A program made the position numbers and the translations under genes. DNA of 34,271 nt from assembly GCA_903892045.1 (NCBI GenBank), contig CAITGX010000179.1, forward strand, positions 1-34,271, in the 5' to 3' direction. The first letter of the stretch is position 1, and the number at the start of each line of letters is the position of its first letter. Below are positions 3,965-11,356 of this stretch, piece after piece. This DNA is from an uncultured Planctomycetota bacterium (lineage in GTDB: Bacteria; Planctomycetota; UBA1135; GCA-002686595). The notes under the pieces were generated by a model. It saw nothing but the letters and a program-made list of their open reading frames with translations. It was not told the DNA's origin and made no database searches.

Positions 3965-4597
3965 CTAGCCGGTGGCGCGGGGCGGCGAGCCGATGCGGCT
4001 TGCGAGCGCGGACACGGAAAACGCCGTGCCCGCGAGGAAAAAGCCGGGCAGCCAGCCCGCCAGCAAGCTCCCCAGCAGCTGCGCGCCGTCGGCGAAGGCT
4101 TCCTCGGGCGGACTGTCCATGGACTGCCACGCGCCGTATCCCATGTGAGTCCCGAGGAACAACTCGAGCCAGAAGACGAGCACGCCCAGCCCGAGCAGTC
4201 CGTAGCGGACGACCCAGTGACCGAGCCGAGCGGCACATGCACCGGCGACAAGAACCAGCGGCAACCCGTACAGCAGGTGGAGGCAGAATACCTGATGGAA
4301 GGGGAGCGAGCTCTCGCTCGCGGAGGCGTAGAGCGCGCCCACGAGCGCGAGCCCGCAGGTCGCTGCGATCGCTGCGGCGCGCCGCAGCTCGCCCAAGCGC
4401 TCCTCGAGGAGCTCGCTCTCGCAGCGTCGTGCGTGAGCCTCCTCGTCCCCGAAGCGGTGCGCCGCCTCCGCATCGGCCTGCTCGGGCGCGAGCCCCTGCG
4501 CGACCAGCGCCGCGCGGCACTCGTCGCGATGGACGCGGAACTCCTCGCGGATCTCCGTGCAGGCGCGCGGTCCGGCGATCCACCTCACGAGGCCCAT
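3965..4597 (-). CDS. Integral membrane protein with N-terminal HAAS/permease-prefix-like helical segment
   Basis: N-terminus [37 protein letters not shown] resembles the E-x(n)-H-x(n)-G-x-x-x-E-x-A-x(n)-FGD pattern of PadR-associated HAAS / permease-prefix domains, followed by several hydrophobic segments. Overlaps padR by 13 bp. Confidence 0.75.
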
Positions 4598-4968
4598 GCC
4601 GCGCCTCCGAGGTCGGCGGGAGCCACGCTCGACGCCAGCGCCGTGGTCACGGCACTGGAAACCGCCTTCCAGCGCGCGGTGTCGAGCTCGAGACGTCGGC
4701 GGCCCGCGGTGGTGAGCGAGTAGAAGCGCGCCTTGCGGTTGTTCTCGCTCGTCCCCCAGGTCGCCCGCAGCTGGCGCAGTCGCACGAGGCGGTGCAGGGC
4801 CGGATAGAGCGAGCCTTCCTCGACGAGCAGCGCGCCGGAGCTGCGCTGCTTGATGTCGTGCGAGATTCCGTAGCCGTGGCGCGGCTCCTGCGAGACGCTG
4901 CGCAGGATCAGCAGCTCGAGCGTGCCCGAGGGCAGCTCGTGCGAGTCGCTGGCGGAGTGGATCGGCAT
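4585..4968 (-). CDS. PadR family transcriptional regulator
   Basis: [83 protein letters not shown] is a canonical PadR winged-HTH. Start taken at ATG 4968 (MPIHSASD), preceded by AGGGGAAG; the longer ORF to 5022 begins inside a palindrome. Confidence 0.92.
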
Positions 4969-4980
4969 GGCGAGCGCTTC

Positions 4981-4997
4981 CCCTTGCGGCGCAAGGG
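4981..4997. promoter_or_regulatory. Palindrome 1 (CCCTTGC-GGC-GCAAGGG), candidate PadR operator
   Basis: Perfect 7-bp arms with 3-nt spacer, 12 bp upstream of the padR ATG; matches palindrome 2 at 15/17 positions. Confidence 0.7.
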
Positions 4998-5013
4998 AAG
5001 TATGGCAGTACCT

Positions 5014-5030
5014 CCCTTGCAACGCAAGGG
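5014..5030. promoter_or_regulatory. Palindrome 2 (CCCTTGC-AAC-GCAAGGG), candidate PadR operator
   Basis: Perfect 7-bp arms with 3-nt spacer; centre is 33 bp from the centre of palindrome 1. Confidence 0.7.
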
Positions 5031-5065
5031 GAAGGGGCGCGACCGTCTGCGCCGGTGAGCGCTGC

Positions 5066-5932
5066 TCAGCGTGGGGCGGAGCGCTCCAGACCCTCGAGCG
5101 CGCCCACGCAGGCGCGTTGGACGCGCTCCGAAACGGCGTCGAATCCGGGGAGCGGCGCGAGGGACGTCTCGTCCATGTAGAGCGCGCGCTGGACCTCGAC
5201 CATCAAGGCGGACACGCGCGGGTCACGCCGGTAGCGGGCGAGAGGAACGAGCGCTCCGGAGAACGGGCGGTCGACCTCGACGGACCAACCGGCGGCCTTG
5301 AACTCCGCGACGAAGGCGTCGCGCAGTGCGGGTGCCGTATGAAAGGAATCGGTCCCGATGCAGATGTCGGGGCGAGGCGCGCTCCGCTCCTCGAACGGCA
5401 AGGGCGCCCGGGGGAAGCTGTGGCAGTCGATCACGAGGCAGCGTCCATGCTCGGCGAGCGCGCGTTCGACGGCCGACGCGAGCCGAGCGTGGTGCGGCAC
5501 ATAGAACTCCGCGAGCAGGCGCGTGCGTGTGCTCGCGTCGAGCGCATGGCGCAGCCGCTCGCCATTCGACGTCCGCTCGTAGATCACGCCGAGTCCTCTG
5601 CGAGCCATGGGCTCACGTTCGTCGTCGACGAAGCGCTCGACGTCCACGACGATCCTGCTCGCCTGCGCGCGAACGCACGCGCACGTCTGGCCAGCGGCGT
5701 ACAGTCGGAAGGTGTGATGGTCCGTGAGCCGTCCGAGCTCGCGCGCAAGCTCGGCATCGTCGACCGCGAACTGCGGTCGCGTCCACTCAGGAATCTCCGT
5801 GGAGTCGTGTGGAACGTGCAGCACGACCCAGTCGGGCAGTGAGTCGGGGGCGGATCGGGAGGTCGACGCGTTGGGGTGGCTCGTGCTCACACGTCCATGT
5901 TCGACCGCGCGCCGGCGTACGGGAGTCGGCAT
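5066..5932 (-). CDS. N-formylglutamate amidohydrolase-like protein
   Basis: WVVLHVPHDSTEIPEW..., LTDHHTFRLY, RIVVDVERF, VIDCHSFPRAPLPFE, RPDICIGTD, VDRPFSGALVPLARYRRDPRVSALMVEVQRALYMDE: N-formylglutamate amidohydrolase family pattern. Occupies the C-terminal end of a mostly spurious 2007-aa ORF; start at ATG 5932 or 5941. Confidence 0.85.
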   Translation of the reverse strand: MPTPVRRRAVEHGRVSTSHPNASTSRSAPDSLPDWVVLHVPHDSTEIPEWTRPQFAVDDAELARELGRLTDHHTFRLYAAGQTCACVRAQASRIVVDVERFVDDEREPMARRGLGVIYERTSNGERLRHALDASTRTRLLAEFYVPHHARLASAVERALAEHGRCLVIDCHSFPRAPLPFEERSAPRPDICIGTDSFHTAPALRDAFVAEFKAAGWSVEVDRPFSGALVPLARYRRDPRVSALMVEVQRALYMDETSLAPLPGFDAVSERVQRACVGALEGLERSAPR

Positions 5933-5964
5933 GTGTGTCATGCCCGACGAACGCAGCGCGACTC

Positions 5965-8058
5965 TCAGCTTTCGACGCGCACGCGCATGTCGACGGCGCA
6001 CAGGCCGTCGGGGAAGGCGAGCGCGGGGTTCAGCTCGAGCTCGGCGATCTCGGGGTGGTCGACCGCGAGCTGGGAGAGGCGCTGGATGAGGTCGACGAGG
6101 GCGGCCTCGTCGATGCCGGCCTGGCCGCGGACGCCGGCGAGGATCGGCCAGCCCTTGATCTCGCGCAGCAGCTCGCGCGCGCGCACGTCGCTCACGGGGC
6201 ACAGCGCGAACGAGACGTCCTTGAGAACCTCGACGTAGATGCCGCCGAGCCCGAACATCAGCACCGGCCCGTAGCTTGGGTCCTGCGTGAAGCCGACCAC
6301 GACCTCGCGACCACCCTTCAGCATCTTCTGGATGTTGACGCCCTCGGCCTCGGGGTGGCGCAGCTTCTCGAACGCCGCGCGCACGGCGGCCTCGTCGGCG
6401 AGGTTCAGGAGCACGCCGCCGACGTCGGACTTGTGGGGGATCGAGGGCGCCGAGAGCTTGGCGACCACCGGATAGCCGACCTTCGCCGCGATCGCGACCG
6501 CTTCCTTCGGCGTGCGCGCGAGGCCGCCGGGAACCGCGGGAATCCCGTAGGCGCGCGCGAGCTCGCGCCGCGCCTTCACTCCCAGCCAGCCGGGCTTGAG
6601 TGCCGCGCGCGCAGCGGCGACGTCGACGCGGAAACGGCGCACCTTGCCTTCGGGGCGCGCGAGGATGCGACGGCGCTCGTCGAGCGCAGCGAGCGCGCGC
6701 ACGGCGGACTCCGGGTAGAGGTACACGGGCACCCAGTCCTGCGCGGCCTCGCTCGAGATCGCGCGCAGCACCTCGTCGCGGGCCATGAAGCAGCCGACGA
6801 CCGGCTTGCGCGAGCCGCGCGCGGACTCGAACACGGCGCGCGCGACCGCGACGGCGTCGTGCGTGATCGGGGGCACGAAGATGACGATCACTTGGTCGAC
6901 GTTCGGGTCGCGCAGCAGCACGGCGAGCGCCTCGCGGTAGTGCTGCTCGGTCGCGCCCGCGACCATGTCGACGGGGTTCTGCACGCTCGCCTCGGGCACG
7001 AGCAGCGCCCGCAGCGCCGCGCGCGTGTCCTCGCCGAGCTGCGCCATCGCGAGGCCCGAGCCGACGATCGCGTCGGTGGCGAGGATCGCGGGACCGCCGG
7101 CGTTCGTGAGCACCGCCGTGTGCGGACCGGCGGGCAGCGGCAGCTTGGAGAGCGCGAGCCCGACGTCGAAGAGCTCCTCGACGGAATTCACGCGCTGCAC
7201 ACCGCATTCCTTGAGCAGCGCGTCGGCCGCGACATCGGCTCCCGCGAGCGAGCCGGTGTGGCTCGAGGCCGCGCGCGCGCCCGCGCTCGAGCGCCCGGCC
7301 TTGACCGTCACGAGCGCCTTCTCGCGGCTCACGCGCCGGGCGGTCGGCACGAACTTGCGCGGATTGCCGAAGCTCTCGAGGTACAGCAGCACGCAGCGGA
7401 TCGAGGCGTCCTCGCTCCAGTATTCGAGCAGGTCGTTCGCGCTGACATCCGCGCGGTTGCCCATCGAGACGAACATCGCCACGCCGAGCGAGAGGTGGTC
7501 GGAGTGAGCGAGGATGGCCTCGCCCATGGCGCCCGACTGCGACACGAACGCCACGGGACCCGACTTCGGAAAGCTGCGCGAGAACGAGGCGTTGAGGCGC
7601 ACGTCGGCTTGCGCGTTCTGGATACCCATGCAGTTGGGGCCGACGAGTCGCATGCCGTGCTTGCGCGCGAGTCGCACCAGCCGCTCCTCGACCGCAGCGC
7701 CCTCGGGGCCGGTCTCCTTGAAGCCGGCGGTGATGATCACGACGGCGCCGACGCCCTTGCGGGCGCAGTCGGCGAGCGCGCGCGGCACGAGCGCCTTGGG
7801 GACGGTCACGATGGCGAGATCGACGGCGTCCGGGATCGCGGCGACGCTCGAGTGGCACTTGATCGAGTGCAGCACGTCGGCGTGCGGGTTGACCGGGAAG
7901 ACCTTGCCCTCGAAGCCGCCCGTGACGAGGTTGTGAAGCACCTGCCAGCCGATCGAGCCGGGGCGGCGCGAGGCGCCGATGACGGCGACGGCGCGCGGAC
8001 GGAAGAGACGGTCGAGATCGCGCGGTGCGCGGCGGGGAGTCGCGAGCTTGCGTGCCAT
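5965..8058 (-). CDS. Acetate/acyl-CoA ligase (ADP-forming), fused alpha-beta type
   Basis: LFRPRAVAVIGASRRPGSIGWQVLHNL (CoA-binding), GPNCMGIQN, ASSHTGSLAGAD (catalytic His region), C-terminal ATP-grasp VGYPVVAKLSAPSIPHKSDVGGVLLNL. Start MARKLATPRRAPRD at 8058. Confidence 0.92.
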   Translation of the reverse strand: MARKLATPRRAPRDLDRLFRPRAVAVIGASRRPGSIGWQVLHNLVTGGFEGKVFPVNPHADVLHSIKCHSSVAAIPDAVDLAIVTVPKALVPRALADCARKGVGAVVIITAGFKETGPEGAAVEERLVRLARKHGMRLVGPNCMGIQNAQADVRLNASFSRSFPKSGPVAFVSQSGAMGEAILAHSDHLSLGVAMFVSMGNRADVSANDLLEYWSEDASIRCVLLYLESFGNPRKFVPTARRVSREKALVTVKAGRSSAGARAASSHTGSLAGADVAADALLKECGVQRVNSVEELFDVGLALSKLPLPAGPHTAVLTNAGGPAILATDAIVGSGLAMAQLGEDTRAALRALLVPEASVQNPVDMVAGATEQHYREALAVLLRDPNVDQVIVIFVPPITHDAVAVARAVFESARGSRKPVVGCFMARDEVLRAISSEAAQDWVPVYLYPESAVRALAALDERRRILARPEGKVRRFRVDVAAARAALKPGWLGVKARRELARAYGIPAVPGGLARTPKEAVAIAAKVGYPVVAKLSAPSIPHKSDVGGVLLNLADEAAVRAAFEKLRHPEAEGVNIQKMLKGGREVVVGFTQDPSYGPVLMFGLGGIYVEVLKDVSFALCPVSDVRARELLREIKGWPILAGVRGQAGIDEAALVDLIQRLSQLAVDHPEIAELELNPALAFPDGLCAVDMRVRVES

Positions 8059-8176
8059 GAAGCTGCTGTTGTAAGTCGCGGGCTCGAAGGAGGACGCACC
8101 GCACAAGAGCGTACGGGTGCGGTATGCTCGTGGAGGCACCTCGCGCGCCCACTCCGACGCCCGCTCCACGACGCAC

Positions 8177-9673
8177 ATGTCCCGCATCGCCTTCGTCCTG
8201 ACGACCTGCCACGAGTTCGAAGGGGTCAAGGTGCTCTCCTCGGTGCTGAAGCAGCACGGGCACCAGACGGATGCCTTCATCACGAGCGAAGAGCGCGACT
8301 ACTACCAGGCCATCGCGGACTTCCGGCCCGACGTGGTCGCGATCTACGCCACGACCGGCCAGCACGAGTGGCCCTACCCGTACATCCGGCGCTGGAAGCA
8401 GCTCAACCCGAAGCTGAAGGTCGTGATGGGGGGGCCGCATCCCAGCCATGACCTCGAGCCGCTCGAGCACGTCGACGTGATCGACGCGACCATCAAGGGC
8501 GAGGCCGAGTACGCGATGCTCGAGCTCGTCGAGGCGTGGGCGAAGGGCGAGAGCATCGAGCTCATCCCGAACGTCGCCTACCGCGGGCCCGGAGGCGTGC
8601 CGGTGCAGAACCCGATCCGGCCGGTGATCCAGGACCTCGACACGCTGCCGTTCCCGGACGTCGACATCTTCTACAAGTACCCGTTCCTGCGCTCGAAGCG
8701 CGTGCTGCAGGTGCACGCGAGCCGCGGCTGCCAGAACTCGTGCACGTACTGCTCGGTCGGCACGATGAAGAAGGACTGGGTCAGCGGGAAGAAGGGCGAG
8801 AAGTTCAACCGCACCAAGTCCGTCGACTACCTGTGCGACGAGATCAACGACGTGCTCGCGCGCTATCCGGGCTTCCGGATGATCAACTTCGGCGACGCGG
8901 CCCTGAACATGTACTCGGGCTGGCTGCAGGAGTTCGCGGAGAAGTGGCCGGTGCGCGTGGGCCTGCCGTTCGCCTGCAACATCAACATCAACTACCTCGA
9001 CGAGGACGACATCATCGCGCTCAAGCGCGCGGGCTGCGTGTCGGTCCAGTTCGGGCTCGAGTCCGGCAGCGAGGACGTGCGGCTCAAGATCTACAAGAAG
9101 GGCTACACCGACGACGTCGTGTTCGGGATCCCGCCGCTCCTGCGCAAGCACAAGCTCACGTTTCGCACGAACAACATCATGGGCTCGCCGGCGGAGACGC
9201 TCGACGACATGTTCGAGACCGTGCGCGTGAACAAGAAGATCCAGCCCAACGGCTGCACCGTGCTGATCTACCGCTCGTTCCGCTCGACGGTGCTCGGCAA
9301 GGAAGACTTCGAGCTCGGCCGTCTCGACGAGGGCAAGGACATCGGGCCGTCGATCCAGCACGACTCGAACATGATCCGCGAGGACGTGCGCGAGGTCGTC
9401 AACCTCCAGAAGCTCTTCAACGTCGCCGTCTACGTGCCCTTCGGCATGCCGCTCGTGCGGGCGCTGATCCGCCTGCCGCGCAACCGGGTGTTCGAGGTCA
9501 CCCAGCTCTCGTTCCTGTGGTACCAGCACGCGGTCGTGTCGGGCTATGGCATGCTCGACGACTTCCTGCTGGGCCTGAAGAACCTGCGCAATATCTTCCA
9601 GCCGACCCGCCGCAAGCCCGCCGGACGCAGCCTCGCGGCGCGCATGGAGACGGGCGTCGAGACCACCGTCTAG
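8177..9673 (+). CDS. B12-binding-type radical SAM protein
   Basis: N-terminal Rossmann-like segment (MSRIAFVLTTCHEFEGVKVLSSVLKQHGHQTDAF...KVVMGGPHPS) followed by RGCQNSCTYCSVG (CxxxCxxC [4Fe-4S]-SAM motif) and FGLESGSEDV. Confidence 0.9.
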   Translation: MSRIAFVLTTCHEFEGVKVLSSVLKQHGHQTDAFITSEERDYYQAIADFRPDVVAIYATTGQHEWPYPYIRRWKQLNPKLKVVMGGPHPSHDLEPLEHVDVIDATIKGEAEYAMLELVEAWAKGESIELIPNVAYRGPGGVPVQNPIRPVIQDLDTLPFPDVDIFYKYPFLRSKRVLQVHASRGCQNSCTYCSVGTMKKDWVSGKKGEKFNRTKSVDYLCDEINDVLARYPGFRMINFGDAALNMYSGWLQEFAEKWPVRVGLPFACNININYLDEDDIIALKRAGCVSVQFGLESGSEDVRLKIYKKGYTDDVVFGIPPLLRKHKLTFRTNNIMGSPAETLDDMFETVRVNKKIQPNGCTVLIYRSFRSTVLGKEDFELGRLDEGKDIGPSIQHDSNMIREDVREVVNLQKLFNVAVYVPFGMPLVRALIRLPRNRVFEVTQLSFLWYQHAVVSGYGMLDDFLLGLKNLRNIFQPTRRKPAGRSLAARMETGVETTV

Positions 9674-9718
9674 GCGCCCGCCCCCGCTTTCGGCGGAGCG
9701 TGCTAGACTTCGACTGAC

Positions 9719-11356
9719 ATGTTGCTCTCCCAGATCGCGACGGGAGCGGCCCTGCTGCCGCTTCTGGCGTCGTCGGGAGCCCGGCCCACCGAGGCGCTCG
9801 GGCTTCCGTCGGCGTCGCTGGCGCCGCCCGGCAACGTGCTCGTGATCACTCTCGACGACGTGGGCGTCGACCTGATCGGCGCCTACGAGAGTTGGTACGT
9901 GTCCCAGGGGCGCGAGCGCGGCCAGCCCGCCAACACCCCGGCCATCGACAGCCTGCTCGCCGCGCAGGGCATCCTCTTCACGGAGTGCTGGACCGCTCCC
10001 ATGTGCACGCCGAGTCGCGCACGACTCCTCACCGGCAAGTACGGGATGCGCAGCGGCATCGGCGCCGTGCTCAAGGAGACCGAGACCTCCGGCTACCTCA
10101 ACCCCGGCCTCCAGCCGAGCGAGCTGACCCTGCCGCAGCTGCTGCGCACCGGGCCCTCCTCGTACACCTCGGTCGCGGTCGGCAAGTGGCACCTCGTCGA
10201 CTCGCCCCTGCGCGCCACGCTCCCGGCCCATCCGCTCGGATCGCCCACCGGCACGTGGTTCGATCGCTACGCGGGCGCGATGTTCAACCTGCAGAACGCC
10301 CAGCCCGGTGGCGGCACGAACGTCTACTCGAGCTGGATCAAGACGTACTGCTCGTTCCTCGACCCGAACGTCGCGCCGTGCCCGAGCGGCATGCCGCCCT
10401 GCGATGTGCTGAAGTTCGCGCCGCCGGTGACGAACTACGTGACGGTCGACACGACCGACGATGCGCTCGCGATGGTCGCGACGCTGCCCGAGCCGTGGTT
10501 CCTGTACGTCGCCTACAACGCGGTCCATGCCCCGGTGCACGACATCCCCGCCGGGATGCCGTCGACCCAGTGCGGGAGCTACCTTCCCAACTTCTCGCCC
10601 TGCTATCCGGGCGTGACGCCGAGCTTCGCCTCGCGCGTGCGCTGCATGATGGAGGAGCTCGACAACCAGATCGGGCGACTGCTGTGCGCGGTCGATGCCG
10701 GGGACACGACGGTGATCCTGATCAGCGACAACGGGACGGACCCCAACGGCCTCGTCCCGCCCCACGACCGCTCGACGGCCAAGGGCACGATCAAGGAAGG
10801 CGGCATTCGCGTGCCGATGATCGTCCGCTCTCCGCTGCAGGGCCCGGGAACGCCCGGCCGCGTCTCGCGCGCGCTGGTGAGCTCGACCGACGTGTTCGCC
10901 ACGGTGGCAGCGATCGCGGGCATGTCGCTCCCGACGGGGGCGGCGCCGGACTCCGTGTCGATGCTGCCCTACATCACGGGCTTCCAGGGGAGCGTGCGCA
11001 AGTTCGTCTACAGCGAGAACTTCTTCCCGAACTTCGAGCCCGACCCGGTCACGGGCGGCCCGCCGGCGAACTACGTCACCAACCGCCATGTGCAGGCCAT
11101 TCGCGAGCAGCGCTTCAAGCTCGTGCGCCGCACGGATCGCAACCAGAACGGCGGGAACACCTTCACGGTGACGGAGGAGTTCTATGACCTCCAGCAGGGT
11201 GGCCCGCCGGATCCCGTCACGGGCGGGCCGACGCCGGACTGGTTCGAGGAGAACGACCTGCTGCTCTCTGGCCAGCCCCTCGCGGCGCGCGCTCAGCGCG
11301 CCCTGCAGGTGCTGCGCAACCGGCTCGATACCCAGTACCCGTCGATCTGTCGCTGA
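9719..11356 (+). CDS. Secreted sulfatase (arylsulfatase family)
   Basis: VLVITLDDVGVDL metal-binding start, MCTPSRARLLTGKYGMRSG sulfatase signature (Cys-type), VGKWHL, LISDNGTDPNG, N-terminal hydrophobic signal. Confidence 0.92.
   Translation: MLLSQIATGAALLPLLASSGARPTEALGLPSASLAPPGNVLVITLDDVGVDLIGAYESWYVSQGRERGQPANTPAIDSLLAAQGILFTECWTAPMCTPSRARLLTGKYGMRSGIGAVLKETETSGYLNPGLQPSELTLPQLLRTGPSSYTSVAVGKWHLVDSPLRATLPAHPLGSPTGTWFDRYAGAMFNLQNAQPGGGTNVYSSWIKTYCSFLDPNVAPCPSGMPPCDVLKFAPPVTNYVTVDTTDDALAMVATLPEPWFLYVAYNAVHAPVHDIPAGMPSTQCGSYLPNFSPCYPGVTPSFASRVRCMMEELDNQIGRLLCAVDAGDTTVILISDNGTDPNGLVPPHDRSTAKGTIKEGGIRVPMIVRSPLQGPGTPGRVSRALVSSTDVFATVAAIAGMSLPTGAAPDSVSMLPYITGFQGSVRKFVYSENFFPNFEPDPVTGGPPANYVTNRHVQAIREQRFKLVRRTDRNQNGGNTFTVTEEFYDLQQGGPPDPVTGGPTPDWFEENDLLLSGQPLAARAQRALQVLRNRLDTQYPSICR

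Follow-up and report, generated by a model that had tools for sequence, protein, structure and literature searches.

Twin palindromes upstream of a planctomycete padR gene as predicted PadR operators

The padR locus and its upstream palindromes

The window, the whole 34,271-nucleotide stretch analyzed here, carries on its minus strand a padR gene (4585..4968) encoding a 127-amino acid protein with a predicted winged helix. The product scored 69.1 bits against PF03551 (cut-off 27) and 126.6 bits against TIGR03433 (padR_acidobact, NCBIfam; cut-off 101.8 bits), which places it in both families; the genome has no PF03551 gene besides padR. An AlphaFold model of PadR (pLDDT 82.8) displayed the standard winged helix of the family, comprising helices at residues 16-27, 32-42 and 51-63 (the recognition helix), a two-strand wing and a long C-terminal helix at 87-114, and the model matched the structures of LmrR, BC4206, Rv3488, a Listeria PadR-type factor and cdPadR1 (5dym). 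The end of padR overlaps by 13 bp a second minus-strand gene (3965..4597), whose 210-amino acid product has a permease-prefix/HAAS-like N terminus. This product matched the permease-prefix family NF038403 at 26.4 bits (E 4.5e-6), below the cut-off of 30, and a Pfam search of it returned zero matches. Hydrophobic stretches follow the N-terminal prefix, and the protein is apparently a membrane protein. The second genes of relatives encode a similar prefix, as judged by eye.

Upstream of padR, and on the same strand, is a formylglutamate-amidohydrolase-like gene (PF05013) with its stop at 5066. A 2007-amino acid open frame also runs from 5066 to 11089 of the window on the minus strand, antisense or out of frame across several genes; this is an effect of high GC content and not a gene.

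The 97-bp gap that separates padR (minus strand, ATG at 4968) from the formylglutamate-amidohydrolase-like gene contains two 17-bp palindromes, a proximal one, CCCTTGCGGCGCAAGGG (4981-4997, centre 4989), and a distal one, CCCTTGCAACGCAAGGG (5014-5030, centre 5022). The minus strand of 4966-5065 contains CCCCTTGCGTTGCAAGGGAGGTACTGCCATACTTCCCTTGCGCCGCAAGGGGAAGCGCTCGCCATG. The positions assigned to the pair in the earlier note were exact, and the perfect 7-bp arms, the 15/17 identity and the 33 bp between centres described there were all reproduced. The better unit for each palindrome is 19 bp, CCCCTTG-N5-CAAGGGG, with one outer base mismatched per copy (4980-4998 and 5013-5031). Read on the padR strand, the proximal candidate operator (4980..4998, minus) is TCCCTTG-CGCCG-CAAGGGG, centred 21 bp before the padR ATG, and the distal candidate operator (5013..5031, minus) is CCCCTTG-CGTTG-CAAGGGA, centred 54 bp before it. 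All four half-sites are thus CTTG/CAAG, and the proximal 19-bp site has the same position and form in relatives.

Promoter and ribosome-binding signals were then located relative to these sites. On the minus strand, a putative -35 element, TTGCGT (5027-5022), is weak and stands in the register of the TTGACA of relatives, and a putative -10 element, CATACT (5004-4999), lies between the two operators, where it was placed from the 17-bp spacing. The pair proposed earlier can indeed be read in a register conserved among relatives; its agreement with consensus is poor, however (3/6 and 4/6), and a consensus promoter scan reported none for the -35/-10 of the window. The placement of this putative -35 in the second palindrome was borne out, the TTG of the hexamer being situated in the distal left half-site. 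So was the overlap of the first palindrome with a Shine-Dalgarno-like sequence, AAGGGGAAG (4985-4977, minus), part of which lies in the proximal operator's right half. This operator overlaps both the Shine-Dalgarno-like AAGGGG and the expected transcription start.

One interpretation of such repeats is that they are chance palindromes of GC-rich DNA, or the remnant of a terminator of the upstream gene. Palindromes with 7-bp arms and a 3-bp spacer are indeed frequent in the GC-rich window, with 15 seen against 9.0 expected under a first-order Markov model, and one such palindrome alone is unremarkable there. A similar pair within 100 bp, however, occurred in only 2 of 200 Markov-simulated windows, the dyads are conserved across phyla as described below, and there is no U-tract, a terminator search of the region having found none. 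This explanation is hardly credible and, for practical purposes, is refuted by the comparative data.

When the window was scanned with three mismatches allowed, no other site with fewer than three was recovered. The 4.4-Mb genome holds three exact matches to the palindrome on two contigs, two of these being the twin itself. The third (L003; G000:C275:11693-11709) falls within a coding frame resembling aroA (EPSP synthase) and is probably a chance occurrence. A regulon beyond the padR operon was considered and rejected, given the position of this third copy and the number of near matches in the genome, which was not above that of a reversed-pattern control (24 versus 33). The motif suggested for a genome scan is infrequent genome-wide, and its twin form was found before padR only, in the scan made. 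Note that the source assembly is in fragments and 91% complete, which leaves a wider regulon conceivable.

The same data bear on the idea that a different regulator binds the palindromes, or that PadR chiefly controls other genes and regulates itself incidentally. The third exact copy could be taken in its favour, as could the ~200 sites predicted for cdPadR1 (PMC5050560). Against it are the single PadR of the genome, the near-match count given above, and the association of the twin motif with padR across differing genomic surroundings; this idea is judged very improbable.

Conservation of the dyads upstream of related padR genes

The nearest PadR homologues are from Acidobacteriota, Planctomycetota, Verrucomicrobiota and Gemmatimonadota. 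Upstream of the gene for an 82% identical PadR (L050, genome G094) are CCCCTTG-CAGCG-CAAGGGG and CCCTTG-CACTGC-CAAGGG, spaced as in the window, with different centres and different upstream DNA. The proximal palindrome of L050 has a 6-bp spacer instead of 5 bp, which is either tolerated or a sequencing or assembly difference. A 65% identical PadR (L066) is preceded by CCCCTTG-ACCAA-CAAGGGG and TCCCTTG-TTCCA-CAAGGGG, 33 bp apart. More distant PadRs have CCCCTTGACnnCTAGGGG and CCCCTAG-N5-C(T/A)AGGGG, for example at L021, L025, L053, L108 and L147. The palindromes are kept upstream of orthologues, a check suggested in the earlier note, with CTTG/CAAG held by the 82% and 65% identical PadRs and the layout held, with CTAG, by the distant ones. 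Overall, twin 19-bp dyads of the form CCCCTWG-N5-CWAGGGG were found before padR in Planctomycetota, Acidobacteriota, Verrucomicrobiota, Gemmatimonadota and Myxococcota. In these relatives the centres are 33-34 bp apart, the -35 starts inside the distal dyad, and the proximal dyad ends just before the start codon.

At least one dyad was counted in 80 of 137 homologous upstream regions (4.6 in shuffles) and at least two in 42 of 137 (0.0 in shuffles), with the consensus taken from these same homologues and the shuffles preserving base composition only. The counting rule left 57 of the 137 without a dyad. For some of these the start codon assignment or the contig end is off, and some probably use other operators. 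Distances between dyad centres peaked at 33-34 bp (27 pairs against 5.5 expected), and 19 of the 28 collected twins had a spacing of 33 or 34 bp. In 25 of these 28 twins CTTG forms the distal left half-site, usually as CTTGACA, which places the start of the -35 hexamer within the operator. CTAG predominates at the inner half-sites (21/28 and 20/28), and the proximal right half-site, commonly just before the start codon, is CAAG in 11 twins and CTAG in another 11.

More weight is given to a scan for the twin pattern in 392 genomes of the phylum, because the counting rule was derived from the same homologous sequences to which it was applied. The scan returned six places, all six directly preceding a padR, while a reversed-pattern control returned none. 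Four of the places were known beforehand, and two, in genomes of other families (G131 and G382), were first met in the scan; in both, the gene after padR again encodes a similar helical prefix, as judged by eye. When the pattern was restricted to CTTG/CAAG letters, the window alone matched in the 392 genomes, L050 having the 6-bp proximal spacer and L066 not being reported from that genome set.

In a tree the window clustered with L050, L066 and L171 (support 88), and with L050 at support 98. A protein basis for the choice between CTAG and CAAG was sought at residue 62, near the end of the PadR recognition helix, which is valine in the all-CAAG clade (window, L050 and L066) and glutamate in most others. 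This candidate was set aside, since several CTAG relatives also lack E62 and the three members of the clade represent one branch; an unrelated all-CAAG locus, L038, has R62.

Two variant forms were also observed. The loci L154, L051 and L144 have an AT-richer TACCTAG-N5-CTAGGTA, as a twin at 30 bp in L154, and this form links the GC-rich dyad to TACT/AGTA-like PadR sites. In the same bacterial family, another subgroup of more distant PadR-like genes (L039, L040, L048 and L049) has a conserved palindrome of its own upstream, approximately GAATACnnnGTATGCATACnGCGTA, which is probably the operator of that subgroup.

Probable DNA operators and a proposed autorepression

The palindromes could instead act in the mRNA, the proximal one (or both as one long stem) hiding the Shine-Dalgarno sequence or insulating padR from upstream read-through. 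Folding gave a 9-bp stem for the proximal palindrome (-13.6 kcal/mol) and a long stem for the whole region (-62.1 kcal/mol, z -6.95), and the half-sites of the distal palindrome covary with those of the proximal one (89% paired; covariation 0.179 versus 0.075 shuffled). However, a doubled palindrome always makes a long inverted repeat, so a strong RNA fold is expected anyway, and pairing of the five-base centres and linker was near the shuffled level (47% versus 41.9%). Furthermore, the distal palindrome contains the -35 and would be absent from the promoter's own transcript, the expected transcription start falling within or immediately past the proximal palindrome's left arm. A T-T mismatch in the local distal stem is tolerated in 8 of 10 cases with the half-site letters retained. 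Half-sites are conserved while spacers and linker vary freely, a combination that speaks for DNA operators rather than an RNA hairpin, and four copies of one protein half-site fit the data better than an RNA stem. A hairpin is disfavoured, though conceivable in read-through transcripts, and the RNA explanation as a whole is considered highly unlikely.

The preferred reading, to which we assign a probability of about 0.88, is that the palindromes are PadR operators, and that two dimers occupying the promoter and the ribosome-binding site autorepress padR and its HAAS/permease-prefix-like partner. This prediction agrees with the autoregulatory role proposed earlier and is supported by conservation before orthologues, by the low frequency of the motif in the genome, and by the restriction of the twin form to padR in the scans. 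It draws on the precedent of the Listeria PadR proteins, on the plan of cdPadR1 and on the signalling dyad proposed for PadR and HAAS proteins. Each 19-bp dyad would be occupied by one PadR dimer, whose pair of recognition helices would read the CWAGGG half-sites, and the 33 bp between centres (about three turns) would align the two dimers on the same face of the DNA. The -35 would lie under the distal dimer, and the transcription start and Shine-Dalgarno region under the proximal one; together the dimers would block RNA polymerase, so that padR and the co-transcribed membrane-protein gene would be repressed by negative feedback. The signal releasing PadR would probably come via the membrane partner or a small ligand, and this is the least certain step.

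A broader proposal is made tentatively and is the more doubtful of the two. Twin CWAGGGG dyads may constitute the operator code shared by a large PadR/permease-prefix group, so far untouched by experiment, in at least five phyla, with half-sites that double as promoter and ribosome-binding signals (CTTG supplying the TTG of the -35, and CAAGGGG the Shine-Dalgarno letters); PadR and operator of the window clade may then have co-evolved until all four half-sites became CTTG/CAAG. The mechanism is of an already known kind, while the GC-rich operator letters are new: in the open-licence literature searched, neither the half-site letters, nor their spread over at least five phyla, nor their overlap with the -35 and Shine-Dalgarno letters was found. 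Pairs of PadR with permease-prefix (HAAS-type) proteins occur widely in phyla that have received little study, and the papers searched gave no operator for this group. With a concrete 52-bp twin pattern that matched nothing but padR promoters in 392 genomes, binding can be tested directly and such promoters annotated. The pattern also offers a simple setting in which to follow joint changes of operator letters and recognition helix.

Comparison with known PadR systems

LmrR and the classical PadR proteins use operators of the ATGT-N8/10-ACAT type (PMC3506622, PMC4534193). The window is predicted to share with them a winged-helix PadR dimer on an inverted repeat and autorepression by more than one dimer. 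Both of its sites lack ATGT and ACAT, and the motif does differ from the classical one, as the earlier note states. For the TIGR03433 family, to which the window PadR belongs by its score above the cut-off, no operator was found in the open-licence literature searched.

PadR proteins beside HAAS-type membrane proteins have been proposed to form a signalling dyad (PMC11237479), and the Listeria regulators LftR, LstR and LltR are autorepressors of their own operons (PMC6624303). The locus may resemble these HAAS-PadR-like wHTH dyads, including Listeria LstR/LltR, in which a standalone PadR precedes a membrane protein carrying a helical prefix at its N terminus; the HAAS/permease-prefix match of the second gene in the window is below the family cut-off. 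The parts of PMC11237479 and PMC6624303 consulted gave no definition of the dyad's operators.

The closest precedent for the twin sites is cdPadR1 (CDR20291_0991 of C. difficile R20291), a PadR-s2 autoregulator that binds two TACT-N11/12-AGTA repeats in its own promoter. These repeats lie 25 bp and 52 bp before the ORF, and the more distant of them covers the -35/-10 (PMC5050560). Unlike cdPadR1, with its TACT/AGTA sites and AT-rich core, the window has GC-rich CWAGGGG half-sites, a permease-prefix-like partner gene after padR and, in its genome, no sign of a wide regulon. The dual-operator layout is present in the window, as two inverted repeats centred at -21 and -54 from the ATG with the distal one over the promoter, and is conserved in relatives. 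The outer tetramers are similarly spaced, 11-12 bp apart in cdPadR1 and arranged as CCCC-N11-GGGG in the window and TACC-N11-GGTA in some relatives, and the fold predicted for the window PadR is the same as that of cdPadR1 (5dym).
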